From Tridacna crocea (Eukaryota; Mollusca; Bivalvia; Cardiida; Cardiidae): a DNA stretch of 64,000 nt. Positions 28,730-63,074 of this stretch are shown here, piece after piece. A program made the translations under genes and the position numbers. Within the stretch, counting starts at the first letter, position 1. Each line of letters begins with the position of its first letter. The stretch spans positions 25,738,296 to 25,802,295 of the forward strand of contig OX031068.1 of assembly GCA_943736015.1 (NCBI GenBank), given 5' to 3'. The notes under the pieces were generated by a model, which worked only from the letters and a program-made list of their open reading frames with translations, did not search any database and had not been told where the DNA came from.

Positions 28730-28957
28730 TTAACCCTTCCCCAAACAAGCCCTGGTCTTTAGGTGTCTGCAGTAAAAGTCTATTGAAAACACTGTGGGAA
28801 AAGAAGAAATTGCTCGTAACGAGCAATTTCTTCTTTTCCCACAGTTTTTTCTACCCTGTCTAAGAATTTTCTGCCATTTTCTCCCAATGTAAAATTGTTG
28901 TCTGCAAACACTTTTGGTTAGGAAAAGTCGAAAATTTGTCGTTTAGGAAAGGGTTAA
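28730..28957 (+). mobile_element. Family 1 MITE, subfamily B, with private compensated change
   Basis: TTAACCCTTCCCCAAACAA to GGAAAGGGTTAA. Left arm reads aaaagaagaaattgc and right arm gcaatttcttctttt where other copies have ggag and ctcc. Confidence 0.95.
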
Positions 28958-28979
28958 GAACACTATGTTAGCTTTAATA

Positions 28980-29262
28980 TGGGTTGCAACACGGGAAAAG
29001 GGGCATTCGAACATTTGCGTAAAGTTTGGTCTCGGATCAGCCTGCCAGTTGGCGCAGCCTAATCCGAGACTGCACTTTACGACAACATTAGATATTGTGA
29101 TACAGTAGACTTGTGCAAACCAGAAAATCGTGACTTAATTTTACGGAAAGTGCCGATTCGGATTAGCCTGCGCGGACTGCACATGCTGATACGAAGTCGA
29201 CGCTTTACGGAAATGTCCGAATGTCTCTTTCAGCGTGTTGAAGGCCATACAATTTTGTTATG
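28980..29262. mobile_element. Family 6 MITE
   Basis: Inverted ends gcaacacgggaaaaggggca and, on the other strand, cttcaacacgctgaaagaga, each followed by CATTCG and ACATTT. Inside are cggatcagcctgccag and ggattagcctgcgcgg, related to the family 3 core. Confidence 0.8.
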
Positions 29263-29330
29263 AGAAATAAAAAAATCGGAAATAACGACCAACCACTCCT
29301 TTCGCCACAATGTTTTCACAATGATAAACC

Positions 29331-29525
29331 TTAAACCCTTGCCAAACAACAAACTTTTAAACTTGCCTAAATTGAAAGCTTTTACAGGCGGCAATATATT
29401 TGTGGATTATTGATATTCACGTTTGAAAGGGTGAAAGAAAAAAATGGCAGGAAGAAGAGAAAATGTTGGTTACCAGCATAAAAAATTGTCTCCTTTTTCC
29501 CATAATGTTTTCATAAGGCCTTAGC
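29331..29525 (-). mobile_element. Family 1 MITE with insertion near hairpin tip
   Basis: TTAAACCCTTGCCAAACAA; tip ttggttaccagcataaaaaa then ttgtctcctttttcccat. Confidence 0.82.
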
Positions 29526-29624
29526 TATATTCATTATCCGTATATTCCGTCTCCTGCAATTTTTTTCGGGGGGAGGGCAGGGGAGGGGCGGGGTTTCACT
29601 GATAAACTGCAGAAAAATCTGATT

Positions 29625-29853
29625 TTAACTCTTTACCACACGAGAAAGTTTTAGACTGGTCCAAATTCAATACATTGGCAGACAACAAAATAAAGGTGAC
29701 TGAAAAATTGAAATTTGTTCTGGGAAGGGTAGAAAACACTGTGGGAAAAGTAGAAAATGCTGGTTACCAGCATTTTCTCCTTTTCCCACAGTGTTTTCAA
29801 AAGGCTTCTTTCTCAGGGGCGTCAAAAGTAGGGATTGGGTGGTAAAGAGTTAA
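29625..29853 (-). mobile_element. Family 1 MITE, near-consensus
   Basis: TTAACTCTTTACCACACGAGA to GGTAAAGAGTTAA. Mirrored aacactgtggg and cccacagtgtt arms. Confidence 0.96.
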
Positions 29854-29990
29854 ACAAGAGTTGACATGCAATGCACCTAAATCATTTACCACACTTGTCC
29901 CCTCCTCGTCCCCTTTTTTTTTCGACCACGAGAAAAAAGTGTTTATCAAAACTTTGGTGAAAAACGAGAAAAAATACTGTTTACAAGCGT

Positions 29991-30213
29991 TTAACTCATT
30001 ACCAAACGACAAAATTTTAGGAAAGTCCAAATCAAAAGCATTTGCAAACGACAAATTAAAAGTGACTGAAAATTTGAAATGTTTTGTGAATGTTAGAAAA
30101 CATTGTGGGAAAAGGAGAAAATGCTGGTTACTAGCATTTTCTCCTTTTCCCACAATGTTTTCTAAAGGCTTTTCATGGTCCAGAAAAGTAGGGATTGTGT
30201 GGTAATGGGTTAA
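29991..30213 (-). mobile_element. Family 1 MITE
   Basis: TTAACTCATTACCAAACGACA to GGTAATGGGTTAA; tip gctggttactagc. Confidence 0.95.
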
Positions 30214-30271
30214 CTCCTTTTCTCACAACGTTTTCTAATTTTTTTTATAGGCAAATCCCATCACTGAAGCC

Positions 30272-30490
30272 TTAACTCTTTACCACGTATTTCCCGACTT
30301 TTAAAACCCCTGTGAAAGAAGCCATTGTGAGAAAAGGAGACATGTTGGTAACCAGCATTTTCTCCTTTTTCCACACTGTTTTCTTTTCTGCCTAAAACAA
30401 AATTCAACTCTTTAGTCACATTTATTTCGTCCTCTGCAAATGCTTTGAATTTGCACCAGTCTAAAATTTTATCGTTTGGTAAAGAATTAA
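30272..30490 (+). mobile_element. Family 1 MITE, left arm shortened
   Basis: TTAACTCTTTACCACGTATT to GGTAAAGAATTAA; gccattgtgagaaaaggaga replaces the usual left arm. Confidence 0.9.
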
Positions 30491-30585
30491 CCTGAAAAAT
30501 AAGGGAAATAAAACTTTCAAGCTGATAGTAAAACCCATAATTGCGCTATTTCAGAGTATTTTTTACGTTTGAGAAAATTGTATTC

Positions 30586-30685
30586 TTATCAGACAGTGTA
30601 GATCCCAGATCAGACTGCACGTTATGTGCAGTCTGATCTTGATCTACACTGTCTGCAAAAGGTTCTGGAGTCGCGGTTAGCAGCC
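30586..30685. repeat. Family 2 palindrome
   Basis: agacagtgtagatcccagat, cagactgcacgttatgtgca, gatcttgatctacactgtct, then gagtcgcggttagcagcc. Confidence 0.93.
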
Positions 30686-30699
30686 TATGGTTTAGAGCA

Positions 30700-30773
30700 T
30701 GTTTAATTTGTCGTCTGCAAATGCTATCAGTTTGGAATTCAGTCTAAATCGTTGCCGTCTGTTTAAGAGTTAA
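30700..30773 (+). mobile_element. Family 1 MITE, right end only
   Basis: taatttgtcgtctgcaaatg to ctgtttaagagTTAA, fused directly after a family 2 copy. Confidence 0.8.
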
Positions 30774-31282
30774 GTTTGTCTGGTCCGTATGTAAATAAAA
30801 CGTCGATAATGCTTTTGACGAAGTATTTGATAGGAAATATCTTGACTGATAAACTTATCAATCAAGTGTTTAACGTTTTACCAAACGACAAACCGTTCGA
30901 CTTGCAGGGCTTTTTTTGTGAGTATTTTTCCCTCTGGCAAAATGTTTCAAAATCATGCTACTGCAAGACAACAGAAAGCTGACTGTAGACAGTGATTTGT
31001 TTCCCGTCAACCCCCTCCTATCCCCTCCCTCGACCAAAAAAAAAAGGTTGATTTTTTCATGGTAAAGAGAAAATATTTTTGGAATCGAAATTGATTGGTT
31101 GTAAAAAGAAATTGCCCATACTTCAAATGTTTTCAGAAAAATTAAAGATCTATTTTTAGACATAAAAACTCATATCTACTGTAATAGGCTCAAACCTAAA
31201 GCATACTCCACATCCCGTTGTTTCCCGTGTTCACGGGGAGTATGTGTGCGGCCATAGAAACCCCGTCCAATCTCAATCAATT

Positions 31283-31356
31283 TAACCCTTTATCACACAT
31301 TTTCGAGTTTTAATATCCGAAAAGAACGACCCTCAGAAACTAACCAGCATTTCTCC
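31283..31356 (+). mobile_element. Family 1 MITE, left half with internal deletion
   Basis: ttaaccctttatcacacatt, gaccctcagaaactaaccag, catttctcc. Confidence 0.75.
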
Positions 31357-31582
31357 TTAAAACTCGTTACCAGACGGCAACATTTTAGCCTTGTCCAATT
31401 TGAAAGCATTTGCAGACGACAATTTCGGCGTGACACAACTGGTGCAATTTTTCTTTGATAGGTTAGAACACATTGTGGGAAAATAGAAAATACTGGTCAG
31501 CATTTTGTGTACTTTTCCCATAATCTTTTCAAAAGGCTTCATTCCCAGTTTCGATAAATGGCGGTATTGTATTGTAAAGGTC
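31357..31582 (-). mobile_element. Family 1 MITE
   Basis: TTAAAACTCGTTACCAGACGG to attgtaaaggtcc; core tactggtcagcattttg. Confidence 0.85.
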
Positions 31583-31621
31583 CAAGCTATTGCTATTTCA
31601 ATGTTATGTTTTCGGAAACAA

Positions 31622-31735
31622 TATCTCCCTATCGGATATTGTAGATCAAAGATCAGACTGCACCTTCTGTGCAGTCTGATCTGGATCTATACTGTCCGCA
31701 AAAGGTCAGTGAGTCGCGCTTAGCAGCCTAAGGTT
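31622..31735. repeat. Family 2 palindrome
   Basis: tcggatattgtagatcaaag, atcagactgcaccttctgtg, cagtctgatctggatctata, then cgcgcttagcagcctaagg. Confidence 0.92.
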
Positions 31736-31978
31736 TAAACACTAATTTCACAGAGCATGGCTAACTTCTGTCGTACCAGACATATTTCGTACCCTTCGTT
31801 GCGTAGTATGATATAAAATACGTTAAGCTATAACGGGCCTTTTTACCTCTCTACATTCTACATGTTGACATAAAATCTGAAAACATCTTGGGCAGTATAA
31901 AGGAGTTTTACTGGCAGTAGCTCCTTTTCTTAATTTGTCGATGTAACAACAATAAAAAAATATTTGCATAAATGATAT

Positions 31979-31981
<3 letters not shown>

Positions 31982-32016
<35 letters not shown>
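31982..32016. repeat. (CT)n microsatellite
   Basis: Uninterrupted CT tract of about 35 bp. Confidence 0.97.
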
Positions 32017-32020
<4 letters not shown>

Positions 32021-32244
32021 CTACTGCTTCCTTTCCAGCATATTCGGTAAAAAGTCCTGTGTCTGATTAAGGGGTATACAAAAGGTTGTTGCAGTACAGG
32101 CGTATCTTGTTAATATTGAATTTCTGTGGCATGCAAGGTATTGAATGGCACAAAAGATTTCTGATGGGAAAGAAAGGGAATATTAAAACTTCAATTGATT
32201 GATTATGTCATCGACGTAATATTGATTCATGGATATAGAACTAT

Positions 32245-32474
32245 TTAACCCTTTACCCCATAAGGCCATTTCTGCGGTATCTCTAATTGACCCTAAATAA
32301 CAGCAAGAATGAAGCTGTTTCTTATGTGTATATAACACCTTTTGATAGTGTAGAAAACATTGTTGCAAAATGTGAAATTGCTCATCACGAGCAATTTTAC
32401 CTTTTGCCACAATGTTTTCTAAAGGCTCTTACAAGCAATGCGTAGAAATGAATATCTATGGAGTAAAGGGTTAA
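32245..32474 (+). mobile_element. Family 1 MITE, subfamily C, complete
   Basis: TTAACCCTTTACCCCATAAGG to GAGTAAAGGGTTAA. Includes ctaaataacagcaagaatga and core attgctcatcacgagcaatt. Confidence 0.95.
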
Positions 32475-32743
32475 ATTCTCCTTTTCAATAATCTATTGAA
32501 TGCACTCCTTATTTCTATTTTTTTCAAAACTTAAAGGAACACTACCGGACATAAGTTAACAGTTCAGGGGATCAAAATGCAGACCAATTTAACATTCAAA
32601 GGTGTGGAATTAACTATAAGTCTTATAATGTGCTACTGTGGAATCTGTCAACGTTACAAGGCTGCCGGAAGAAAAAGATATCGTAAAAGTTTAACAAAAA
32701 TACTATATAGTATGTCAACTTTCACTCTAGTTTTATAATATAT

Positions 32744-32837
32744 TTTATTTCATCTCGTGAACACCATCGGTATATTTTCGCTCGTGGTTGCTCCACTCGT
32801 GAAGATATTACCGATGGTGTCAACTCGATGAAATAAA
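32744..32837. repeat. Unclassified inverted repeat
   Basis: tttatttcatctcgtgaaca, ccatcggta against taccgatggtgtcaactcga, tgaaataaa. The loop holds gctcgtggttgctccactcg. Confidence 0.8.
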
Positions 32838-32977
32838 TTTCGATCTTTCACCGAAAAAAAAAAACCATATATCCTCTATATCATGTCGGCAGCAGTTACT
32901 GGAACTTTGTCAGACCGTCCCTACACACATTATTAGACTCATGAAAATATCCATACTTTTAAATGGTTTACATAAAT

Positions 32978-33112
32978 AAATTCTTTACCAAACGACAGAT
33001 TTTTAGGCTTGCCCAAATGGAGAGCATTTGCAGATGACAAAATAAAAGTGACTGAAAATTTGAAATTTGTTTTGTGAAGGGTAGAAAACATTGTGGAAAA
33101 AGGAGAAACACT
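32978..33112 (-). mobile_element. Family 1 MITE cut inside the hairpin
   Basis: ttctttaccaaacgacagat to gtggaaaaaggagaaaca, then abrupt change into the inverted repeat that follows. Confidence 0.82.
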
Positions 33113-33116
33113 CTAA

Positions 33117-33294
33117 TTGGATTCGTGTAATATCGCCGTTCATCGCCAAAATTGTATAGATTCAGCTAAGACTCGGGAAATGCATAATATCGATGAAGGG
33201 AAGCAGCGGTTATTGGTCGATCGATTACGGATTACCCGAGTTTTAGCCGAATCCGTTCGTTTTTCGGCGATGAAAGTCGATGTTACACGAATCC
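33117..33294. mobile_element. Unclassified palindromic MITE
   Basis: Arms of about 75 bp: ggattcgtgtaatatcgccg, tcatcgcc, cagctaagactcggg; mirrored by cccgagttttagccgaatcc, ggcgatgaaagtcgatgtta, cacgaatcc. Single copy in the window. Confidence 0.75.
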
Positions 33295-33535
33295 CATCAG
33301 GGTTCTCTATCCTTAAATTGGTCTTCAATTCGACTCCCGAATTATTTACATTTTGCAGCTAGTTGACCTGTTTTTAAAAGTGGCCTTTATTGAATCATAA
33401 ACAATTTCAAATTGCCTTGACAACGCTTTCATAGAGATCACAACTATTTGCTTTGATATGAAATGGGAGATATGGACCTTTTTAGTTAGTCTGGATTACC
33501 TGCACCTACCACTACGTACTCTTGAAGTAAGGAGG

Positions 33536-33600
33536 GTTACCAGACTACTTTCTAGTAGGCGTGGTACCAGACTACTTTCTAGTAGGCGTAGAAGCCAGAG
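33536..33600. repeat. Two-copy tandem repeat
   Basis: accagactactttctagtag, gcgt occurs twice in a row (33540 and 33567). Confidence 0.85.
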
Positions 33601-33636
33601 ACAAGCTCCCACCGAAAGGGAATGGGCGTAGTCCGC

Positions 33637-33863
33637 TTAACTCTACCAAACGGCAAAATTTTAGACTGGTCCAAATTGAAAGCACTTGCAGACGACAAAA
33701 TAAACGGAGTTAAAAATTTGAAATTTGTTTCCAGCAGGGTAAAAAACATTGTGGGAAAAGGAGAAAATACTGATTACAAGCATTGTCCCATTTTCCCACC
33801 GTTGAATGTTTTCAAAAGGCTTCTGTCTTTGTAAAAACCAGGAATGGTTTGGTAAAAGGTTAG
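33637..33863 (-). mobile_element. Family 1 MITE
   Basis: TTAACTCTACCAAACGGCA to ggtaaaaggtta; core tactgattacaagcattg is imperfect. Confidence 0.88.
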
Positions 33864-34094
33864 TAGAAGGGGTTTTAGCAAACGTGACAAAAGAAATGCA
33901 CACAAAAAATGTTTACAACAAATATAAGTTATTGATTACATTACGTTCGGGTTGTGGGCTTTAGAAATATTTCAAAAGCAAATATTAATCAAGTTTTTAG
34001 TTTTCGAAACATACCAGAAAGATCTAGTATTTCTGTGCGATACTGTTTTTTTTTTTGATAAAAATTTTCAACGATATATACAAAACAAGGACAT

Positions 34095-34140
34095 TTGTAG
34101 ACGGCACAGGTCGAGATTAGACTGCACAAAACGTTTGAAT
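34095..34140. repeat. Family 2 palindrome, left half
   Basis: cacaggtcgagattagactg, cacaaaacg only. Confidence 0.6.
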
Positions 34141-34146
34141 TATTGC

Positions 34147-34356
34147 CTTAACACTTTACCAAACAATCCCTGGTTTTTACCACCGTGAGATAGAAGTCTC
34201 TTGAAAACATTGTGGGAAAAGGAGAAAATGCTTGTAACCAGCATTTTCTCCTTTTTCCGCAATGTTTTCTACCCTGTTGGAAACAATTCTCCATTTTTGA
34301 GGTAAGTTTATTTTGTCGTCTGCAGGTACTAGAATTTTGTCGTTTGGTAGAGTTAA
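34147..34356 (+). mobile_element. Family 1 MITE
   Basis: TTAACACTTTACCAAACAA to TTTGGTAGAGTTAA; tip gcttgtaaccagc. Confidence 0.93.
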
Positions 34357-34403
34357 CTTGATGAACATAACTGTCTGTTTCAATATTGTCTAGGGGTTAT
34401 TTC

Positions 34404-34667
34404 TTAACAAAACGACAAAGTTCTAGACTTGTCAAAACTGGAAAAAATGCGTAAAACTGAATAAATGGAACGCAAAAAGACTGAAATTAAATAGAAAACA
34501 TTTGGGAAAAGAAGAAAATTCCGGTAACCAATAATTTTTCCTTTTTTCACGAATATTATCTAACATTTTAAAGGCAAATTCCATCATTGAATCTTTATGA
34601 ATATAAATCTGCAAATGCTTTCGACATAGACAAATCTATATTTGGCCCGTGTGATATTTAGAGTTTA
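34404..34667. mobile_element. Family 1 MITE, eroded
   Basis: ttaacaaaacgacaaagttc, ggaaaagaagaaaattccgg, taaccaataatttttcc. Confidence 0.7.
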
Positions 34668-34883
34668 AAAAAAAAACACTGTCTTTTTCATTTGAACAGA
34701 ATCGTCCATTCTTTTCTTTAGTTTCGCATTTGCAAATGAAGTTCAAGTGTTTGTAAGCGTTAATTGAGTTGTTTGTCAGGCTTTCGTAAACATTTCCATT
34801 ACTTATAAATTTACTTGTGGAGTGAAATCTTTCGATCACTGAATTGCTGAATAATTTATGCTCTTTGTTCCTAAGTACGTTAG

Positions 34884-34895
34884 AATAGAGAGAGA

Positions 34896-34947
<52 letters not shown>

Positions 34948-34998
34948 GACCGATCGAGCGCCCGACCGACCCACTCACTGACCGACCAACCGACAGGC

Positions 34999-35029
<31 letters not shown>

Positions 35030-35040
35030 TAGACAGACGC
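34884..35040. repeat. (AG)n followed by (GACA)n
   Basis: AG tract at 34884-34948, a short unique stretch, then CAGA/GACA units at 34996-35036. The repeat opens long frames on both strands; these are not genes. Confidence 0.96.
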
Positions 35041-35214
35041 ACGCATAAACACACGATTTCTTTTAAAGTTTGTCTTTTAATCTCTTGACATAAACCCCCC
35101 CTCCCCTATACTTTGTAATCATCTGCTATACGTCATTACCTCTTACAACAAACCTTCAAGTACAATATAGACGACTTTGATAATGTTGTATAGTGGTCTG
35201 TTGACAATCATATG

Positions 35215-35335
35215 AACCGTGCTCTGTGAAAAGGGAGCTTAATGCGTTTACGAAAAGTTTCGGCCCAGGTCAGCCTGCGCGGACTGCGCAAGCTGACCTG
35301 GGCCGAAACTTTTCGCTTTCATGACGCGTTTGCTA
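35215..35335. repeat. Family 3 palindrome, intact; empty site for family 1
   Basis: gtgctctgtgaaaagggagc, TTAA, tgcgtttacgaaaag, cggcccaggtcagcctgcgc, ggactgcgca, agctgacctgggccgaaact. The TTAA here is the spot occupied by a MITE in the copy at 62190. Confidence 0.9.
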
Positions 35336-35357
35336 GAATATAAGACTCAAGCTAACG

Positions 35358-35435
35358 TTGTGGATACTGTAGATCAAAGATCAAATGCACGTTTTACGTG
35401 CAGTCTGATCTTTGATTTACAATGTCCACAAAACA
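35358..35435. repeat. Family 2 palindrome
   Basis: actgtagatcaaagatcaaa, tgcacgttttacgtgca, gtctgatctttgatttacaa. Confidence 0.9.
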
Positions 35436-35623
35436 ACAAATGAGTGTGAAAGGTATAGTGTATGGGTCAATTAACATATATGTACATGAAAGGTGACAAG
35501 TTCACTCGACTCAGATACGTATTTATTTTAGGCAGTAACGGAAACAGGGCCAAACGTTCACGGAGTATAAATTATTGATATTTCATTGGCGTGTTGAGAC
35601 CAGCTTTTTTTTGCGCCTTGTCG

Positions 35624-35680
35624 AGGACAGTGTAGATCCACGACCAGACCGCACAAAACATGCAGTCTGATTTTTCATTC
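35624..35680. repeat. Family 2 palindrome, right arm cut
   Basis: gacagtgtagatccacgacc, agaccgcacaaaacatgcag, tctga. Confidence 0.75.
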
Positions 35681-35784
35681 ATCTTTGTTGCTCTATAATA
35701 CTATTCGTGAGCCGTTTTGACTATGAATAAGGCCTGAAAAGCAGTAGTTGAGGTTTTTCTTTCTGGAAACAATGTTCTTGTAAG

Positions 35785-35984
35785 CTTTTATTAAATAATC
35801 CAGGGTTTCAACACAACTGAGGAAGAAGATTTTGGAAAATATTTAAGGAAAAACAGAAAAATGGCTTTTCCCACAATGCTGCTACCATTTCAAAGAGAAG
35901 TCCAAATGACAGTACTCATACATTTGTCGTCTGCAAACATTTTCAACAGACCAGAAAAACATCTTTGTCTGGAAAAGGAATTAA
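35785..35984 (+). mobile_element. Family 1 MITE, eroded
   Basis: ttattaaataatccagggt, aaaatggcttttcccacaat, tttgtcgtctgcaaac, ggaattaa. Confidence 0.7.
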
Positions 35985-36040
35985 TATATTATGAGGGCAA
36001 TTCAGCATAAAAGAAACCTGCAAAGCAAAGAAAACATTCT

Positions 36041-36062
36041 ATGAGAGAGAGAGAGAGAGAGA
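36041..36062. repeat. Short (AG)n tract
   Basis: About 22 bp of AG. Confidence 0.95.
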
Positions 36063-36159
36063 GGTCTTTTCTATAAAAGTATAAAAGAGACCTAAGAACG
36101 AAACATTATTCCTTACTTCCGGTGTGATATACTATACATATGTAGAAAATACTTGAGCC

Positions 36160-36300
36160 CATTCACTGAACGATCCTGTGTTTTAATGACCCAGAGAAAG
36201 GAGGCTTTTGAAAAAAAAAAATGCATACAGAGAAAATACCTGGAACCATCGTTCTATCTTCTCCCAACAATGTTTCACCCTTTCAAAGACCAATGATTTA
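36160..36300 (+). mobile_element. Family 1 MITE, strongly decayed
   Basis: actgaacgatcctgtgtttt, agaaaggaggcttttgaaaa, cccaacaatgtttcaccc. Confidence 0.55.
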
Positions 36301-36579
36301 AGCCCAGAAATTGTACTAACTGAGTGATTGAAAATCTTCTTGTATTTCATTTCCCTTTCAACCCATTCAACCCATTTCCTGTTTGATACTGAAGCCGTTT
36401 TATGTAACAAGAACTTTTATTTATTTAAAATGCACCACCTCTCAAATTACTTCATAGCCTCACTTCCCGTGTGAACTATCCTTATCCTAGATGTACCTAT
36501 AATTTTGTGTAAAAGAATGACAGAGTAGATTCATATCACGCACCACTTAACAGCATAGACGAACAATTTAGCCAGGACT

Positions 36580-37020
36580 TTTTGGCTACGGACGTTTTGG
36601 GCACGGATGTTCTGGCCAGGACTCTTTGGGTACGGACGTGCAGGGACTCTGCACATGTGGGCACGGACGTTTTGGCCAGGACTCTGTGCGTAAGTTTCTG
36701 CTGGGACTCTTTGGGCACGGACGTTTTGGCCAAGACTCTTTGTGTACAGATGTTTTGGATACGGACGTTTTAGCCAGGACGCTTCGGACACGGACTTTTG
36801 GGGTACAGACGTTTTGGGCAGGACTCTTTGTGTACAGATGTTTTGGGCACGGACGTTTCTGCCAGGACGCTTCAGGCACGGACCTTTGGGGTACAGACGT
36901 TTTGGGCAGGACTCTTTGAGTACGGACGTTTTATCTAGGACCTTTTTGGCACGGACGTTTTGGGTAAGCACGTTTTGGCCGCGGACGTTCTGACCATGGA
37001 CGTTCTGGAAACGGGCGTTT
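36580..37020. repeat. Minisatellite of ~15-bp units (TTTTGGGCACGGACG)
   Basis: Diverged units ggacgttttgggcac and variants alternate with aggactctttgggta, forming higher-order units of about 45-60 bp. One strand is G/T-rich. Several frames stay open on both strands because the unit is a multiple of three and lacks stops. No start context, splice pattern or family match supports a gene. Confidence 0.85.
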
Positions 37021-37209
37021 GGCCCCTGCGAACTACGTTGACCTGGTTCTATAACTTTTTGCAAATACATGTACATTAAGTTTCCTTTCAAAGCGCTCGA
37101 ATATATTTTCTTGTCGGAGAAGGAAATCAGATGCCTTCATAATGGCTTCTAAAAAGGGGACACTCCGGTAATATGCTCTACGCCCAAGCCCTTTGGCCTT
37201 GTAGAGTTT

Positions 37210-37274
37210 GAAGGAAGGAAGGAAGGAAGGAAGGAAGGAAGGAAGGAAGGAAGGAAGGAAGGAAGGAAGGAAGG
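37210..37274. repeat. (GGAA)n microsatellite
   Basis: About 16 units without interruption. Confidence 0.98.
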
Positions 37275-37496
37275 TTGATTCGCTGGTTTGTGATTCACCT
37301 TTTTTAAAGTGAACCTTTAGCGATCTTAAATATTTTCTGCCACACGTTCTTTGTAAAAAGACTAAATTGACCTGGTACTTTATCATAGAACACACGAACA
37401 TTTGTAAATCATACCTGCAATGTCAGTGATTGAATAAATTCACTGCATAAGCAGATTACGTTCTCTCTAATCTTCTTCGACAATGTCACCTTTACC

Positions 37497-37732
37497 TTAA
37501 CTCTTTACCAAATGACAAAATATTAGACTCAGTGTCCAAATTGAAAGCACTTGCAGACGACAAAATGATCATTTCATAGTTATTACTTATTATTAGATTT
37601 GAGAAGGGTAGAAAACGTTTTTGGAAAAAGGGGAAAATGCTGATTAACAGAATTTTCTCCTTTTCCCAAAGTGTTTTCAAATGCTGTCTTCATCAGACTT
37701 GTTTAAAGTCTGAATGTGTGGTTAAGGGTTAA
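37497..37732 (-). mobile_element. Family 1 MITE
   Basis: TTAACTCTTTACCAAATGACA to gtggttaagggTTAA; core gctgattaacagaatt. Confidence 0.9.
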
Positions 37733-37911
37733 AAACTGCTCCATATCTATTGAAGGAGACATGGAGCATTTTCCGTTAAAATACAAAGTTTCCGGTTGTC
37801 CTTTCAAAGATTTTACCAAGCTTCTTTACCGTAATTATATCCACAGTTTTTTTTTTTAAAAAATCTAAAAATAATAATCAAAATTAGTACTTGAATGCAG
37901 TTACACATATC

Positions 37912-38139
37912 TTAACCTTTTCCCAAACAACATATTTTGGACTCTTCCAAACTGAAAGAGTTTGTAGAGGACAATTTTAGATTTCGAGAAAATGGCAGAT
38001 AGTTCTCAAAAAGGGTAGAAAACACTGTGGGAAAAGGAGAAATTGCTCGTCACGAGCAATTTCTCCTTTTCCCACAGTGTTTTCAAAAGACTTTTACTGT
38101 AGACACGTAAAAACCAGGGCTTGTTTGGGAAAGGGTTAA
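37912..38139 (-). mobile_element. Family 1 MITE, subfamily B, perfect hairpin
   Basis: TTAACCTTTTCCCAAACAA to GGGAAAGGGTTAA. Arms from gaaaacactgtgggaaaagg to the tip GCTCGT-C-ACGAGC pair completely. Confidence 0.97.
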
Positions 38140-38249
38140 TGCAAAGGTTTTTGTTTTAACGAGAAAAGATTTACCCCTGACCTGCTATAGCAAGTGAGTC
38201 AGTCCCATTGTAAAAACCTCAAATTTTGCTTTTTTCAAAGTTATCTTTT

Positions 38250-38355
38250 AGGAAAAGATATCTCCTTATCAGACAGTGTAGATCCAAGATCAGACTGCAC
38301 GTTCTGTGCAGTCTGATCTTGATCTACATGGTTCACAAAAGTTCCTTGAGACATG
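38250..38355. repeat. Family 2 palindrome
   Basis: agacagtgtagatccaagat, cagactgcacgttctgtgca, gtctgatcttgatctacatg. Confidence 0.93.
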
Positions 38356-38529
38356 TGTACAATAACCCAATTCGCCGATACGCCTTTTTAAAAAAAAAAA
38401 ATTGATTCGATGAAAAATGCCCGACTGGGAGCAATCTTAAGTTAAAATTTTTCGACGGGGGATATCATTTTAACGAAATTGCTTGGTTTTTTTTAAGTTT
38501 TTTTTTTCTATCAAATTGTCTGGTTTTCA

Positions 38530-38670: not shown

Positions 38671-38671
38671 A

Positions 38672-38835: not shown

Positions 38836-38884
38836 TAAAAAAATAGGACCAACTAGTGAGGATATTGTGCGGGACTTTGCAGAT

Positions 38885-40128: not shown

Positions 40129-48675
<8,547 letters not shown>

Positions 48676-48807
48676 GAAGCTTTCCCAGCATTCCCTTGTC
48701 ACCAGGATAACAATGACATCACAGTTTTAATCGACCAATGAGATTTGCCCACTGGCTACAGGCTGAAAAAGACTTTCAAATCCATAAGAATCGAACATTT
48801 CAGTATT

Positions 48808-52237: not shown

Positions 52238-52551
<314 letters not shown>

Positions 52552-52880: not shown

Positions 52881-52924
52881 ACAACGACGAATTACTGGTT
52901 CTTGAGAAATTTATCAACCTGTAG

Positions 52925-53030: not shown

Positions 53031-53579
53031 TAGCACGATTTGACGTTTTACAATTACCTTGGAAGTTTGGTTTCACTAATTTAGCAGCATAAGGGGTTTT
53101 TCCTTGAATTCAAGTAATCTACTTGGCTGAATAGCGGAATCATCGATTTTATGTTTGGTTTCTGTTATGTTTGATGCAGAGCTATTTTCAATGGTGAATA
53201 CACTTGATGGGCAAATAAGTATATTTCTTTATCTGTGAAACAGACTGGTCATGCCCCTGTCTGGCTATACCCCATAGAAGTTCTATCGTTGCTTACTGGC
53301 GAAAGTTTCTGATATGCATGTCGTTGGCCCAGGTTCGATATTCAGCTGAGGCGCAGGGCTTTCGTTGAACTTTCATTGGGAGACTCTAGAGTTCTGCTCT
53401 CGTATTGATGAAACCCGGGACACGCGTACATAAATAACAGAAAGCTGACACTGTGATGTGACTAAAATGATGTCGAAAGCGTTGGGAAACATCATTTTGC
53501 GATAAATGAACAGAGGGATGGATGATTGTTTGATAGACCGACGGACGGACTGACGAATGGATGGATGGCTAGGTAACTC

Positions 53580-53808
53580 TTAACCCATTGCCACACAATC
53601 CCTACTTTTGACACCCCTGAGAAAAAAGCCTTTTGAAAACACTGTTGGAAAAGGAGAAAATGCTGGTAACCAGCATTTTCTCCTTTTCCCACAGTGTTTT
53701 TTACCCTTCCCAGAACAAATTTCAGTTTTTCAGTCACCTTTATTTTGTCGTCTGCAAATGCTTTCAATTTGAACCAGTCTAAAATTTTGTCGTCTGGTAA
53801 AGAGTTAA
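53580..53808 (+). mobile_element. Family 1 MITE, near-consensus
   Basis: TTAACCCATTGCCACACAATC to GGTAAAGAGTTAA; mirrored aacactg and cagtgtt arms. Confidence 0.96.
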
Positions 53809-53831
53809 TGGATGACAGAAGTGAACACTCG

Positions 53832-53985
53832 TTTAAAGTGAAAGCATTTGCATAGGACAAAGTAAAATATTACAAAGATTTTGGGATTTGTGTTAAAAAA
53901 GGCAGAAAATATTATAGAAATATGATGAGATGGTGCCTCACGGCTTTTTCTCCCTTTTCCAACCATGACTTCATAAGCCTGCTAC
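53832..53985 (-). mobile_element. Family 1 MITE, eroded
   Basis: gtgaaagcatttgcatagga, agaaaatattatagaaatat, tctcccttttccaacc. Confidence 0.6.
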
Positions 53986-53989
53986 CCGA

Positions 53990-54305
53990 GATAGATTGAT
54001 TGAGTATACAGAGTTTAACACCGTTTTCAAAATTATTTCAATAACATCGCGGTGGCCTGTGCACCTATTCACGCTTTCCCGGAGTTTCTTTAGACCAGTA
54101 CTCTGCAAAATATTCTTTCCAAGTCACTGGTTGCTTTCCCACATAACTGTTGACGAAACAATGGTCAGCGAGGAGAAAGGAATGAATCCTGTCACAATGA
54201 CTATCATCAATCCTCGGAAAAAATTTGGCCGAGCCAGGGATCGAACAAGCTACCCCCTGCTCTTGAGTCTCATGTTTGCTACCATGCGCCACGAGTGCTC
54301 GGCTA
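53990..54305 (-). mobile_element. tRNA-derived SINE (minus strand)
   Basis: Minus strand: head gccgagcactcgtggcgcat with box B region ttgttcgatccctgg, body gaaagcaaccagtgacttgg, tail tgaaaacggtgttaaactc. Confidence 0.87.
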
Positions 54306-54494
54306 TAATGGGTTAAGGTGCGGGACTTATAACTAAGGGATGCACCGTTAATCCTCACTTGCGACACCAGTAAAGTGGGTATGCCTATAGGCAAGGTACT
54401 GCAAAGCATCTGACCAAATCATGCAAAATTAGGGAAAGGAATAAATGAGTTAACTGTTGCCATGATAATAGTGAACAACTGTTCACATCGATGT

Positions 54495-54722
54495 TCACCT
54501 TTTACCACACAATATTGAGTTTTAAAGACCCTGAGAAAGTAAGCTTTTAAAAACATTGTGGGAAAAGAAGAAAATGCTGGTAACCAGCATTTTCTCCTTT
54601 TCGCACATTTTTTTTAAAATCCTTTCAAAAATAAAATTTGATGTTTCATTCCAATTCATTTTGTCGTCTGCAAGTGCGTTCAATTTTGGATTGAGTCTAT
54701 AAACTGTTGTGTGGAAAGTTAA
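54495..54722 (+). mobile_element. Family 1 MITE
   Basis: caccttttaccacacaatat to gtgtggaaagTTAA; tip gctggtaaccagc. Confidence 0.92.
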
Positions 54723-54766
54723 ATATCAAGACAATGCTGTAAACCTCCTTATCTGACTCTTGAAGC

Positions 54767-54980
54767 TATGTTACTTTCAAAGTTTGAAAATTTTTGAGAA
54801 TAAGACAAAGAACGTTCTTTGTCTTATTCTCAAAAATTTTCAAACTTTGAAAGTAACATAATGCCTGATTGGCTAAACCATTTGGTTTAGCCAATCAGGA
54901 GTTGTGTTACTTTCAAACTCAGAAAATCTTGACGAATAAGAATGAGAGCATTCTTGAGAATAGTTGTTGAAAACGGACCT
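54767..54980. mobile_element. Family 5 MITE with fold-back end
   Basis: The right side is a normal family 5 arm through gttgttgaaaacggacctt, with central tgattggctaaacc and ggtttagccaatcaggag (two CCAAT boxes). The left end is replaced by a 94-bp perfect palindrome (54767-54860). Confidence 0.92.
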
Positions 54981-55022
54981 TTGGTGAAAAGACAAACCCT
55001 AATATTTTTCAGACTAGTGCGT

Positions 55023-55244
55023 TTAACCCAAACAATCCCTGGTTTTTACGGGTCAGGAACAGAAGCCTTTTGAAAACATTGTGGGAAAAGGAGAAAATGC
55101 TGGTAACCAGCATTTTCTCCTTTTCCCACAATGTTTTCTTCTCAGTCATATAGAAAAATCATCTTTTTAGCAACTGTTAATTTGTCAACTGCAAAATGCT
55201 TTCAATTTGGTCTGGTCCAAAATTTGCCGTTTGAGAAAGGGTAA
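55023..55244 (+). mobile_element. Family 1 MITE, subfamily D, perfect hairpin
   Basis: TTAACCCAAACAATCCCTGG (a few end bases lost) to gagaaagggtaa; complete arm pairing. Confidence 0.95.
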
Positions 55245-55358
55245 AGGAAGATAATTTCCCCTTTGAAAACATTATAGGAGGTTTGTTTGTATGAAATAAT
55301 TAATATGGCAAACAACCAATAAAGAAGTTGTTAATTCTCCTTTCCACTTTGTCAACAG

Positions 55359-55494
55359 CTACATTGTGCTACTGAAAGATAACTGCAAAGTCTACAAGAC
55401 AAAATGTCCCAAGCTGATTATGACAAGAGCACTGCACACGGGTGCCAACGCTCGACTGTATTTGCTGGATTTTAACTATTTCAGAGCCTTATAA
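55359..55494 (+). CDS. Unidentified exon-like frame (possible terminal exon)
   Basis: A good acceptor (ctttccactttgtcaacag) is followed by 44 open codons: YIVLLKDNCKVYKTKCPKL, then IMTRALHTGANARLYLLDF, NYFRAL and TAA. It is free of MITE sequence and its amino-acid use looks protein-like. I do not recognise the family. Upstream exons should lie at 48.8-55.3 kb on the + strand, but I see none, so it may be the last exon of a gene with distant exons, a relict, or chance. Confidence 0.35.
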
Positions 55495-55569
55495 TTAAAC
55501 TTGAAAACCTCTTTCTATACAATCCATTGAAACTTACAAAGGTTTTGATTGTTTAGGATTGACCAAACA

Positions 55570-55672
55570 AGCGGACGGTATTGATCAAAGATCAGACTGC
55601 ACGTTATGTGCAGTCTGATCTTGATCTATACCGTCCGCAAAAGTCAGTGTTTTCGCCTATGGCGCCGAAAGG
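55570..55672. repeat. Family 2 palindrome
   Basis: gcggacggtattgatcaaag, atcagactgcacgttatgtg, gatcttgatctataccgtcc: a mirrored ACGGTAT/ATACCGT change. A MITE follows at once. Confidence 0.93.
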
Positions 55673-55673
55673 A

Positions 55674-55898
55674 TTAACCAATTACCTCACAAACCCTTCT
55701 TTTTTCCTGAGAAAGGAGCCTTTAGAAAACATTGTGGGAAAAGGAGAAAATGCTGGTAACCAGCATTTTCTCCTTTTCACACAATGTTTTCTACCAGTCA
55801 CAAAACAAATTTCAAATTTTCAGCCACTTTTATTTTGTCGTCTGCAAATGCTTTGGATTTGGACAAACCTAAAATATTGTCGTGTGGTAATGAGCTAG
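55674..55898 (+). mobile_element. Family 1 MITE
   Basis: TTAACCAATTACCTCACAA to gtgtggtaatgagcta; near-perfect hairpin. Confidence 0.94.
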
Positions 55899-56187
55899 GT
55901 GAAAATTCTAGGTCTAAAAAGGGGTATAATTGTGTCCAAAATGCTTTGACGGTTATCTGACCTTGTTGTATTGGATCTACTTTTTGACAGTGAGTAAATG
56001 TTCCGAGTGTGAGATGGATATCTTCAGTTATCACAGAGATATCATAAAATATCATTTGTTGTGAAAATTCCAAGTCGAAAAAAGGGGCATAAATTTGTCA
56101 AAAGTACCTTGATGGTTGTCTGCCCTTGTTGTATAGGTCACCATTTTGATAGTCAACAACTTGACCACGTTTTAAGTATATTGTTCA

Positions 56188-56416
56188 GTCAACTCTTTAC
56201 CAAACGATAAAATTTTAGACTGGTCCAAATTGAAAGCACTTGCAGACGACAAAATAAACGTAACTCAAATATTGAACTTTGTTTCCAGTAGGATAGAAAA
56301 CATTGTGGGAAAAGGAGAAGATGCTGGATACCAGCCTTTTCTCCATTTCCCACAATTTTTTTTAAAAGGTCTAGCTCAGGGTCGTAAATACCAGCGACTG
56401 TTTAGTAAAGGGTTAA
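56188..56416 (-). mobile_element. Family 1 MITE
   Basis: gtcaactctttaccaaacga to tagtaaagggTTAA; tip gctggataccagc. Confidence 0.92.
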
Positions 56417-56555
56417 AACAGAGATATTATAACATGTCAAAAGTTGTTCCATGCAGACGCAGTTGACGACAGGGCGGCGACAATACATCGACGTTTTTCT
56501 CCCAAAACAGCCAATGTTATAATAATAGAATTAAAATCGAACTATTTTTCTTTTG

Positions 56556-56561
56556 TTTATT
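56556..56561 (-). terminator. Possible polyadenylation signal, beta-tubulin B
   Basis: AATAAA on the minus strand, 229 bp beyond the stop. It is the only clear hexamer I noticed in the 3' flank. Confidence 0.4.
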
Positions 56562-56789
56562 TATCACAGATCTCTTGACATAATACCATCATTTTAGAAA
56601 AAAGTCCAAAATGGAAATTTATATGCCATAGCTGCCGGCAGATTTTAAATATCAATGTTCAAAATTAGAATTGTTGTAAGATGGGATAACAACTAAAGAG
56701 AATTTTCTTTTTCTTCGTGGATTTCGTATAAAGTTAGATACAGGTAAATTGTGTAGTTAAATTTTGTGTCCATTTTCCTCTTGGATGAT

Positions 56790-58577
<1,788 letters not shown>

Positions 58578-59131
58578 CTGAAAGTAGAAATAGTTCGGTG
58601 TTACCTTGAGTTACCTAGTACTAGGAGGTTGCTATCTTACTAATTCTGAGAAATCGCCATAACCAAATTTGCGAGCTATGTGCAGCTAAGTTAATCAGAG
58701 AAATATCTTTAAAAAAATATCTAATTTTATATGAAAAAAAAAAGCACTAGTAGTTCTAAATTTGATACTAGTATCTCATTACAGCCAATAACTTACAATC
58801 CTAACTTTTAAGATGGGTTATGTCTCCTTCATAGTTTTCATTTGTTACATGATAGATCACGTGACTAAACATTACTGTAACTATGGACGCAGTGTCGATT
58901 TCAATAAGGTATGCATTGAAGTGCTTACAAAAGTAAAATGCTGGGAGGTTTTGAATACTGACGTTAATTAAATATCGGGTCGTATTTTTTTGCAAATACC
59001 ATGGCCCGCGAGCTTTTATACAGAGCTTCATTGTTCGGCGCAAATCTATTGTGGTTTAGATGAAAAAAGAGAGGTAATTTACATGGTATTTTAGTTTCTA
59101 ACCGTAATGATATTGGTGTTTTATTGGCGTA
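58578..59131 (-). other. Start of beta-tubulin B intron 1
   Basis: Shares only about 11 bp (tctactttcag) with the equivalent place in gene A, then diverges fully. Confidence 0.8.
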
Positions 59132-59276
59132 TTAGTCTTCTGAAAACATTGTGGGAAAAGGAGAAAATGCTGGAATTTTCTCCTTTTCCCACAATGTTTT
59201 CTACCCTGTCAAAGATAGAAATCATCATTTGAGGTACGTATGGTTGAGTGGTTCAAACTTTTGTCGTTTCGTAAAG
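59132..59276 (+). mobile_element. Family 1 MITE, hairpin tip deleted
   Basis: Arms meet as gaaaatgctggaattttctc: one side of the tip is gone. Right end reaches gtcgtttcgtaaagg; left end lost. Confidence 0.85.
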
Positions 59277-60714
59277 GCTGCTTGTGATAAAATCCATTTG
59301 GTTTATCAATCTGGAGGTAGTGCCATCACTATTTTACGTTCTACTGTCTTCAAAAATACCTTTTATAGCATTCATCTTGAATTTGTTATAGTTAAGGTAG
59401 GGTTTAGATTAATGCAAAATAGCACATTATTCGTTTTAACCATATATGGAAATCTTGTCAGTTTTAATTTCACATTCCAGATTTGATACGCGTTCCCCTG
59501 CATTGCGGATTAATTTTAAAATCAATAAATTTTTGGTCATTTATCATCAGGTAAGGTCAGAGTTAAATTGTATGAAAAAAAAACACGATCAGATTATCGC
59601 TTGATTTATTAAACGATTTGGATTTGGCCATTGCCGTAGTTTGATGTTCAAGCGGAAGTAATGGACCTTCAACCTTTAAAATATAAATCCGCCATGAAAA
59701 GTAACATGGACTAAATTTAGGAGAAAATCTGCTCTCAATCAATTTTCTGTCTCCGCACAGTGTTTTGTATGTTGAAACCTTAAACAGATAATGTTATTCA
59801 TTCGTTAAAGCCGCATTTTTTAAACATAAAATTTCATGTTCTTTGGTAAAGCAGACAACTCGAAATTGTCTATAAGAGCATTTGACCTTGGCCTACCTAG
59901 AAGACATAATTACAAGGAATGACCTTAGATTAAGTTGAAAAAGGATGATAGAAATGTAACAGATCCAGAAATAAAATGTTATATCTAAACAAACGAGCAA
60001 GTCCGTGGGAGAAACGGCCATCTTTGAAGATTACTTCAAGTACTTTACTTTGATGTCTATTTAAATAAGTAATTTACGTACGCTTTCTATGCTATCTCTG
60101 TGAGAAAAATCAAAGAGAGCAGAAGAAAGTCAATCTAAACAGCCATATATCTAGTTCTAAATTATGCAATACTTCAGAGATTGTTTACATATTTATTAGC
60201 GCACCTCGGTGGTTGTTACGCAAAGTTTATTAAGTTGGCCTTTATCTCTTCCCTTTCTCTGACAATCGATCTTCGATCTTATCCCCTTTACATATGAAAT
60301 TCTAAGGTTTACTGAGATAAACATACGCAGAAAAATTGCCGAAGAAATTGAAAAAAATAAATTAGATATAAAGGAGAAGTCGGAAAATTTAAATAAAACT
60401 TGAGAGATAACTGAATATCAGCAAGTTTGAATTTCGTCACAACAATGTAACCTTCACAAAGACATCAGATATTTCGACAGTTATCTGATACAAAAGCAAA
60501 GTTTAATAAAAACGCTTTTCTTTCACATCAAAAGTGTTTGATCCTTTGATCTGAACGTTTCAAAATTGCACAATTATTCTATAACTCGAGGTTGCACTAA
60601 AAGTTACCTATTGAACGCTACATGACAACATAATGGGGGTCTTGTTAATGTATGCTCTAACGGCATAACGAGGTTTTTCACTCTTTCTTCGTAAATGGTG
60701 AATTACATAGCCTT
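59277..60714 (-). other. Intron 1 of beta-tubulin B, no recognised features
   Basis: AT-rich, no MITE with clear ends. A weak core-like trace lies at 59715-59770 (ctgctctcaatcaattttct). No exon-like frame. Confidence 0.6.
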
Positions 60715-60790
60715 TTTGTGGATGGTGTACATCAAGATCAGACTGCATAGAACGTGCATAATTCTGATCTTGGATATATGGTCCGCTACA
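60715..60790. repeat. Family 2 palindrome
   Basis: ggatggtgtacatcaagatc, agactgcatagaacgtgca, ttctgatcttggatatatgg. Confidence 0.88.
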
Positions 60791-61045
60791 CCGAGTTTTT
60801 CTAAACAAAAGCAACTTTGACACTGCTATTATTTATGTCATTATTTCTATTCTGGACACGTCTTTACAGATTATTCAGTGCTCTAAGAGTAAATATTGAA
60901 CATTCAATCGACTAGACGAGGCCTTGTCGTGACAAGAACTAATCTTTGGTACAACCGTGCATAATTGGCTTGATCATTACATTCCTTTACCCTGTGCGTG
61001 AATGGGATACCTTACCTAGGGCTTACATTTTTAGAAAGTTATCAG

Positions 61046-61237
61046 AGCTTCATAGAGAGGGAGTGATTTTTTTATTTCAAACTCAAAACTATAACTTATT
61101 CTCCATCAAACCCTATGTTGTGGGCACTCATTAGAATCGTCTCATTGAGACGATTCTAATGAGTACCCACAACATAGGGTTTTGAAGAGAAATAACGGAA
61201 TTAGTATACCATCACTCCCTCTTATCTGGAGCTCTGG
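61046..61237. mobile_element. Family 4 palindromic MITE
   Basis: cagagcttcatagagaggga to cctcttatctggagctctg; central palindrome aaccctatgttgtgggcact, attagaatcgtctca and mirror. Confidence 0.93.
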
Positions 61238-61761
61238 GTCACTTACGGTATCATCAATATTGTTATTTTCACTCATGTTGTTGTTGTATGTGGTGGTGGC
61301 GTTGTTGTCGTCGCCACATTCATCTTTTTAATTTCTGTCTTATCGATAGTATCGACCTTATTTCATTATTTCTATCATTTAGACCTGGGATTTTGTCATG
61401 ATGACCTCTTATTGTTTTTTTACAGACTCATGGACAGAAGAAATGCTCGGTGGACACGCTATTCACCAACCAACATAGCTTTCGACAGTACAGTGTGAAA
61501 AGGAGAAAGCGCTTGTTTGGTCTTGAATATTTGGATCACTCTGATATTTTCATGTTTTTTTTAAAATATCAAAAATAAAAATAAAAAGAAAAAATCCTAG
61601 AATGAAAACATTTGATATTATATTTCATGTGTCTTTATTTCCCCAGTGAATATTTTCCTCCTGCCGAAAGTCTGGAACTACTTTTTTATTTCGGTGCAAC
61701 AATGACTAGTTTTGAAAGTGGCATTCGATGACAAAATAATTAGTGGAAATATAATATATAA

Positions 61762-61919
61762 TTTATTTCATCAGCTTGTGCTTAGTACGGGAAAATATTT
61801 GTCTCAAAAGGGAAAGGTCCGCGAAAATAACTCCTGCCTTACGGCACTCGTTATTATCGCATACGTTTCCCTTTTTCGGCAAATATTTCCCCATATTAAC
61901 CACAAGCTGATGAAATAAA
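61762..61919. mobile_element. Unclassified palindromic MITE
   Basis: tttatttcatcagcttgtgc, gggaaaatatttg at the left; caaatatttcccc, cacaagctgatgaaataaa at the right. The inner arms tctcaaaagggaaaggtccg and tttccctttttcggc are imperfect. Single copy here. Confidence 0.82.
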
Positions 61920-61963
61920 CTATATTTCTTCAACTGTAAGACTATGTTAATTTCTGTTGAAAG

Positions 61964-61980
61964 GGGGGGGGGGGGGGGGC
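61964..61980. repeat. Poly-G run
   Basis: About 16 consecutive G, a likely sequencing weak spot. Confidence 0.9.
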
Positions 61981-62189
61981 TAAGCATTATCTAGTTTGAA
62001 AAAGGAATTATCATAATCGCCTTTATTTAGTGCTGGGTGTATTGGAAAATATCTGAAGACCAATTTTCTGAGTATTTATCTTGCGGATTTACACGCCCTT
62101 GGTAACAAAGTTATAAACACAAAAAATAAACAAAGCTGACAGTGAACGTTGCTAGGTACGTTATGACAGTTATGAAGAGTAAATAAGTT

Positions 62190-62475
62190 AGCCGCGCTCT
62201 ATGAAAACGGGATTTAACCCATTACCACACAATCCCTACTTTTGACGCCCCTGAGAAAGAAGCCTTTGGAAAACATTGTGGGAAAAGGAGAAAATGCTGG
62301 TAACCAGCATTTTCTCCTTTTCCCACAATGTTTTCTACCCTTTACAAAACAAATTTCAAATTTTCAGCCGCTTTTATTTTGACGTCTGCAAATGCTTCGA
62401 TTTGGACAAACCTAATATTTTGTCCTTTGGTAAAGGGTTAATGCATCTGCGAAAAGTTTCGACCCAGGTCAGTCA
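62190..62475. repeat. Family 3 copy split by a family 1 MITE
   Basis: gccgcgctctatgaaaacgg, gat then TTAA to the left; TTAA, tgcatctgcgaaaagtttcg, acccaggtcagtcag to the right. The right arm of family 3 is truncated at 62475. Confidence 0.88.
62214..62441 (+). mobile_element. Family 1 MITE with proven borders
   Basis: TTAA at 62214-62217 and 62438-62441; body of 220 bp from CCCATTACCACACAATC to TTTGGTAAAGGG. Perfect hairpin. The empty family 3 site at 35215 confirms the borders. Confidence 0.98.
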
Positions 62476-62481
62476 GTAAAT

Positions 62482-62624
62482 TCTGCAGCATTTTCTCTTT
62501 TTCCCACAATGTTTTCTACCCTTTCCAACACAAATTTCAATTTTTGAGTTGCATTAATTTTGTTGTCTGCAAATGCTTCCTATTCTGGCTAATCTTAAAT
62601 AATGTCGTTTGGTAAAGAGTTTAA
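62482..62624 (+). mobile_element. Family 1 MITE, right half
   Basis: gcagcattttctctttttcc, cacaatgttttctaccc to GGTAAAGAGTTTAA. Confidence 0.85.
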
Positions 62625-62838
62625 CAGAAGTTCACCAAGTTCTGGATTCGAGCAAGCTATCGCTTGTCAAATTCTGTATACAAGCGACTGCACTACCGAA
62701 GTTAAGCGAGGAGGGTAACAGGGACGAAAGCATCAAGTTACCGTACTGCAGTGACTACAGGCGACACCAACATTTATTCACGTTTTCTGTCGCCATATAA
62801 ACCGAACCCCCAAATAGTTATTTTTATACCCAAATGGA

Positions 62839-63074
62839 TTTATGTCCTTTACCATTTGCAAACCCGTGTATTTGACACACCTGAATAGGAAGCCTCTAAA
62901 AACATTGAGGGAAAAGGCGAAAATGCTGGTAACCAGCATTTTCTCCTTTTCCCTCATTGTTTTCAATCCTACCAAAGACAAATTACAATAATTAAGCCAC
63001 ATACATATTTGTCGTCTGCAAATGGGGATATTTATGGACCGCTGACTAATTTTTTCACGTCTGGTAAAGAGATA
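62839..63074 (+). mobile_element. Family 1 MITE with private compensated change
   Basis: tgtcctttaccatttgcaaa to gtctggtaaagaga. Left arm attgaggg and right arm ccctcat replace gtggg and cccac. Confidence 0.9.

Follow-up and report, generated by a model that had tools for sequence, protein, structure and literature searches.

RESULTS

The DNA analysed here is a stretch of 64,000 nt (the window) from Tridacna crocea, positions 25,738,296-25,802,295 of the forward strand of OX031068.1 in assembly GCA_943736015.1 (1.05 Gb in 31 contigs), and is animal nuclear DNA. It is rich in copies of a miniature inverted-repeat transposable element (MITE) with a palindrome at its centre, and we ask how the two arms of this palindrome change relative to each other. 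A profile built on 21 copies and run over the window found 89 non-overlapping copies, and these cover 27.7% of the sequence; the hairpin is near-complete in 68. A further 225 copies were found in 240 kb from preset places in the same genome, where they take up 16.8% of the sequence when tandem arrays are counted; extrapolation from these 24 stretches would put the genome total near a million copies. The element spans 221 bp (221 alignment columns) from TTAA to TTAA and has no notable reading frame. Its left part begins with CCC and is about 52 bp long; next come the 67-nt palindrome, a hairpin of 33-bp arms (pairs numbered 0 to 32) and one centre base, and then about 100 bp on the right.

The arms are conserved between subfamilies. 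The flanks define five resolved clades (A1, A2, B, C and F), in which the changes peculiar to single copies mostly date from after insertion. A comparison of the five consensuses found 8 changes at 66 arm sites and 83 at 156 flank sites, against 124 and 407 private changes, respectively (24.2 arm changes expected, 8 seen; Fisher p 0.0013). The consensuses of A1 and B differ at 40 of 158 flank sites and at none of 66 arm sites. As both arms are the same sequence in the duplex, neutral decay should be equal between them, and private changes affect 60 of 2206 sites in the left arm (2.7%) and 64 of 2205 in the right (2.9%); the private rate in the flanks is 4.0%. A preliminary description of this DNA had proposed that substitution rates in arms and flanks be compared, and the arms prove slower on both counts.

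Differences between subfamilies are largely mirrored, as the preliminary description had said. Relative to A, the single differing pair of A2, all three of C and four of the five of D are changed on both sides so that pairing is kept. This mirroring does not extend to pair 12 of subfamily D (within gtggc/gccac), which among 10 copies is G.C in 2, G.T in 6 and A.T in 2 and hence one-sided in 6 of 10. In the lineages that founded subfamilies, the palindrome has changed little compared with the flanks and mostly by matched changes. Private changes mostly affect one side of a pair, and neither arm more often than the other. These patterns suggest that a symmetric hairpin matters for spreading.

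Mirrored pairs were counted by comparing each hairpin with the consensus of its own subfamily. The set comprised 211 hairpins from this one genome, 68 from the window and 143 from the preset (not random) stretches, after removal of 14 copies of three tandem arrays and of hairpins with more than 6 gap columns; one further locus (L038) was scanned and not added. In the window, 43 pairs were changed on both sides and 18 of these were mirrored, against 14.8 expected when right arms were shuffled among copies of similar divergence (p 0.20). The 39 window copies with at most 5 changes had 4 mirrored pairs; the expectation was 1.2 analytically and 1.9 by permutation (p 0.085), and a repeat permutation run gave 2.3 (p 0.17). 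The window counts fit chance, and the private examples of the preliminary description, taken alone, are therefore not above it; window statistics were rejected as sole support for private mirrored cases.

The wider sample shows an excess at low divergence. Among the 118 of 211 copies with at most 5 changes, 12 pairs were mirrored against 3.75 expected in a test stratified by pair and by type of base change (z 4.4, odds ratio 3.67), with transversions alone giving 6 against 1.05. A control using non-partner sites of the same copy gave an expectation of 3.24 (P 1.5e-4), and a simulation with pooled site rates gave 3.0. Plain permutation of arms, in which part of the shuffles return a copy's own arm, gave 13 against 5.6 (p 0.0005; before a further subfamily, C1, was separated). 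The independent 143 hairpins alone (72 with at most 5 changes) had 9 mirrored pairs against 3.88 (permutation, p 0.004); a single copy contributed two of the nine, one of them a subfamily state. For the 46 copies with 6 to 10 changes, the excess was significant by one method of three: 13 against 9.5 (stratified, z 1.25), 14 against 8.7 (within-copy control, P 0.059) and 14 against 7.6 (pooled-rate simulation, p 0.017). The 47 decayed copies with 11 to 20 changes had no mirrored excess, with 27 pairs against 31.3 (stratified, z -0.9) or 32.9 (within-copy control). Three of the 16 gap-free perfect palindromes do not match the consensus of any subfamily. When the partner offset was slid, 48 both-changed pairs were found at the true offset and about 16 to 28 at others; this was not used as evidence because fast sites are common to both arms. 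Both the low-divergence excess and the mirrored subfamily differences show that the arms are not independent. Independence between arms in a wider alignment, which the preliminary description had named as the outcome that would contradict it, is thus not what we observe.

The place of the mirrored changes in the tree hints at lineages rather than at resident copies. In a tree of 56 window copies (25 of 53 inner branches drawn open), the end branches carried 217 changes, of which 194 were one-sided, 12 mirrored and 11 changed on both sides but unpaired. In a larger tree, 58 of the 211 hairpins had flanks too short to be placed and were counted as outside the resolved clades. Within these clades, the 60 copies with at most 5 changes had 2 mirrored pairs against 0.9 expected (2 against 0.36 at no more than 3 changes, P 0.05); the 58 copies outside had 10 against 2.2-2.4. 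With up to 10 changes, the figures were 2 against 1.6-1.7 in 66 resolved copies and 24 against 9.7-10.4 in 98 others. Copies with mirrored pairs also had longer end branches in their flanks (median 0.257, n=11) than unmirrored copies with 2 to 5 changes (0.155, n=56; p 0.049). Clade placement and branch length together point to lineage history before insertion, in a resolved set that is small.

Two cases look like steps from a one-sided to a mirrored state, and pair 12 of subfamily D, present in all three states, is a further stepwise case. Copy L020_477 and window copy 49271 (A2, 92% flank identity) have in common a G9>A change on the left arm, to which the partner change has been added in L020_477 alone. 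Pair 6 is changed on the right arm only in copies 25338 and L025_6125 and on both arms in 26896; as the flanks of these three are only 71-77% identical, the change may have recurred. The hairpin at 25214..25280 is a possible one-sided intermediate of the pair 6 change.

Resident copies decay alike on both arms. Selection for pairing in a transcript should favour changes that leave G.U. Among copies with at most 8 changes, no such bias was seen in the window (G>A 28 on the left arm, its mirror 26 on the right) or outside it (45 and 45). A few other classes were uneven, such as C>T in the window over all divergences (3 left, 12 right, p 0.035), in the direction opposite to pairing. A pooled set with 42 extra hairpins from non-random loci, again over all divergences, was more strongly asymmetric, with left/right counts of 78/27 for T>A, 60/109 for A>T, 166/109 for A>G, 138/96 for G>T and 18/36 for C>T; we suspect that these asymmetries come from undetected repeated units among the 42, and only the window and preset-position sets were used after this test. 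In 72 copies with a letter at the oriented centre base, it was A in 61, G in 5, T in 4 and C in 2; there is hence no excess of inverted centres (T in 4 of 72, G in 5 of 72), although a spacer of one base tests this only weakly and some switches never invert.

The three copies that the preliminary description had singled out as carrying private compensated changes (28800-28836, 41680-41695 and 62904-62957) are present, each with one mirrored pair and each with unmatched changes beside it (Table 1). In the first, pair 19 has gone from G.C to A.T, with one unmirrored change; this mirrored state occurs in 1 of 8 sampled C copies. In the second, pair 28 has gone from C.G to G.C, with one unmirrored arm change and one insertion. 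In the third, pair 10 has gone from T.A to A.T and two further changes are unmirrored: the right arm has CCCTCATT in place of CCCTCAAT, which would mirror ATTGAGGG in full. That such changes are absent elsewhere was too strong a claim, as the pair 19 change is found on a single arm in several window copies and the mirrored pair 10 change recurs in a copy at another locus (L017) with flanks that differ by eye.

Table 1. Hairpins and one whole element in the window
Position	Strand	Feature	Remark
28785..28851	+	Subfamily C copy hairpin, mirrored pair 19 (AAGAAG/CTTCTT)	First example of the preliminary description
41653..41721	-	Hairpin, mirrored pair 28 (ATGGTG/CACCAT)	Second example; flanks outside resolved clades
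62899..62964	+	Hairpin with unmirrored changes beside mirrored pair 10 (GAGGG/CCCTC)	Third example
26951..27017	+	Perfect non-consensus palindrome, mirrored pair 6 (CTTTG/CAAAG)	Absent from the preliminary description
25214..25280	-	Hairpin, pair 6 changed on right arm only	73% flank identity to copy 26896
62269..62335	+	Consensus hairpin of A1, with a 1-nt centre between 33-bp arms	
55072..55138	+	B copy with the same hairpin as A1	Flank consensuses of A1 and B ~25% different
29732..29798	-	A2 hairpin, pair 7 C.G (CACTG/CAGTG), one further change	
38018..38084	-	Subfamily C consensus arms, pairs 7, 25 and 30 mirrored vs A	
22741..22807	+	Subfamily D hairpin, pairs 13, 20, 25 and 30 mirrored, pair 12 one-sided G.T	Flanks look very unlike A
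62210..62459	+	Whole A1 element, profile match	TTAA at both ends; a few flanking bases included

The ends of the element point to its class. Of 211 alignment rows, 110 have TTAA on the left (56 without letters there) and 99 on the right (67 without letters), and 70 of the 112 rows readable at both ends have it at both. The left end is CCCTTT in 49 and CCCATT in 26 of 211 rows (51 without letters); most right ends read ...GAG (61 rows) or ...GGG (26 rows), and the right terminal repeat therefore often starts CTC. From the TTAA sites and CCC ends, we infer a piggyBac-type MITE family with an internal palindrome of 33-bp arms. For the piggyBac transposase (PF13843), 118 matches are listed in the genome. 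None of five such regions that were read shows the MITE's own ends as element ends. Terminal repeats in two of them (CCCTTTATATAC and CCCTTGTCATGC) have little in common with the MITE beyond CCCTT, and none were found in the other three. Transposase frames of 624 aa lie at C10:28376412, C18:30428954, C3:66851558 and C4:69349889 of this genome (G000); the one at C10 is enclosed by TTAA sites and has CCCTTTATATAC repeats, and three of the four score identically, hinting that these frames may have spread recently.

Other features were noted. A Pfam scan of 9 of the 12 listed open reading frames of the window gave a tubulin match in 4 and none in 5. Two beta-tubulin genes lie in opposite orientation at 46894-48702 (+) and 56766-58568 (-), apparently duplicated along with an adjoining MITE copy (47548/57905). 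Long near-perfect palindromes of other families occur at 5417-5618, 40644-40738, 43718-43810, 54767-54860 and 61099-61191, those at 43718 and 61099 having one sequence in common. Outside the window, three tandem arrays have the MITE hairpin in each unit (L010, units of ~1670 bp; L023, ~2084 bp; L034, ~3271 bp). The L010 hairpin has the mirrored GCAGG/CCTGC, and that of the related L023 array has GCAGG/CCAGC, changed on one side only. A 22-base hairpin pattern had no exact match in collections of viral and prokaryotic contigs.

DISCUSSION

Our results incline us, with some reservation, to the view that in the lineages that spread the hairpin is constrained and symmetric, that matched changes arise in those lineages and that changes in resident copies are mostly one-sided. 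The palindrome would be a cis-acting part needed for mobilisation, perhaps because a DNA-binding protein recognises it as a site with two-fold symmetry or because it forms a DNA hairpin or cruciform, and if it is so needed, source elements would keep its symmetry. Either role would explain why both the sequence and the symmetry are conserved. A matched change would then begin as a one-sided intermediate and be completed later by its partner, either through a second mutation favoured by selection or through template switching, in which DNA synthesis copies one arm from the other. Both routes predict one-sided intermediates, and our data fit either selection or arm-templated copying as the final step.

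Several observations weigh against this view. Perfect symmetry is not strictly required, as related copies share one-sided states, both at pair 12 of subfamily D and at pair 31 of subfamily E (one-sided in 2 of 4 copies, one copy having no letters there). The three mirrored pairs of subfamily C could be a single event. Over all branches of the 56-copy window tree, the share of mirrored changes did not differ significantly between inner branches (5 of 42) and end branches (12 of 217; p 0.16), the count covering weak inner branches and the segmental duplicate beside the tubulin genes, to which some of the one-sided changes belong. The copies in resolved clades are too few to show that the effect is lacking in residents, and the fold excess inside these clades is not clearly different from that outside, under a split that was chosen after the tree had been seen. 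Plain permutation of arms over all 211 hairpins gave 55 mirrored pairs against 46 (p 0.07), and none of our p-values are corrected for the number of looks at the data.

An alternative that we consider unlikely is homogenisation in situ, in which resident hairpins, while still near-perfect, have one arm copied onto the other through replication template switching or hairpin repair, until decay puts an end to this. Such a process has been published for inverted repeats (PMC8794818 and PMC8604942), and it would account for a mirrored excess that is strongest at low divergence, for the 2 pairs in resolved clades at no more than 3 changes and for the two cases that look one-sided and then mirrored (L020_477/49271 and 26896/25338). 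However, the resolved clades are compatible with no effect at up to 5 changes and close to expectation at up to 10, and there is no excess of inverted centres, although switching within a strand need not invert. The 12 mirrored pairs among 301 arm changes in the 118 copies also look too few to produce the conservation of arms seen between subfamilies. The preliminary description had spoken of active homogenisation. This stands insofar as the arms are non-independent, at low divergence and between subfamilies, but it is not shown in resident copies, because 194 of 217 end-branch changes are one-sided, decayed copies have no excess and the resolved clades have 2 pairs against 0.9. Constraint or templating in spreading lineages fits better than homogenisation of residents.

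Chance combined with symmetric site rates is distinctly unlikely as the whole explanation. Fast changes (G>A and G>T) are common to both arms, so that double hits look mirrored, and the examples of the preliminary description would be the few expected. The window counts, the decayed copies and the permutation over all 211 hairpins all fit this account. However, tests that keep site and base rates still give the low-divergence excess in the wider sample, strongest for transversions, and subfamily states are mostly mirrored.

There is a slim chance that arm-templated copying takes place within the mobilisation cycle itself, each round of spread renewing the palindrome from one arm. If so, the hairpin would be a self-correcting module and mirrored changes would mark rounds of transposition.

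Selection for an RNA hairpin, as a small-RNA precursor or structured transcript, is very unlikely: the stem is long and near-perfect (the consensus, folded as single-strand DNA, has a z of -14.5), but Rfam has no match in the window at the gathering threshold, resident copies have no excess of G.U-leaving changes, and between subfamilies it is the sequence itself that is conserved, beyond pairing. Selection for pairing, which the preliminary description had offered as the other possible cause, has thus left no trace at the RNA level in resident copies, although it may act in other ways.

If constraint in the spreading lineages is the right reading, an internal palindrome would be functional, besides the ends, in a MITE that covers about 17% of the sampled sequence, and the many copies could be used to gauge how fast arm-to-arm copying and selection act in keeping hairpins symmetric. 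The upkeep of hairpin symmetry is a question that has been addressed for RNA genes (PMC8794818) and yeast genes (PMC8604942). A search of titles and abstracts in one open literature library gave no match for covariation or homogenisation of MITE arms or for palindromic piggyBac elements. Older work reportedly describes a hairpin-based amplification of MITEs in fish.

Among known transposons, the element fits the piggyBac type by its ends. In a survey of small animal genomes, piggyBac elements have TTAA targets, 5' terminal motifs CCCTT and CCCAT and lengths of 1.23-9.51 kb (PMC10813416); the MITE is alike in its TTAA and CCC start and differs in its 221 bp, its central palindrome and its lack of a notable reading frame. 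Kolobok elements, whose hosts include molluscs, also use a TTAA target, but they have 5'-RR and YY-3' termini (PMC9587614), whereas the MITE ends in 5'-CCC, and membership of that group was rejected for this reason. A bivalve transposon survey reports unclassified MITEs to be abundant (PMC10294476).

For the arms, the closest parallels are systems in which one arm templates the other. Identity of arms beyond chance would be expected of template switching; the low-divergence excess looks like it, and selection would give the same. In PMC8794818, template-switch mutation is proposed as a source of compensatory changes and perfect stems in hairpins. The copying of one arm to the other is the likeness to our case, and the difference is that it is described there for RNA genes, rRNA and microRNA among them; the main text does not use the word 'transposable'. 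In yeast, the arms of short inverted repeats are made identical by template switching (PMC8604942). The identity of arms is again alike, but the yeast repeats lie in coding genes and their spacers are also inverted, whereas the centre of the MITE palindrome has no excess of inversion.

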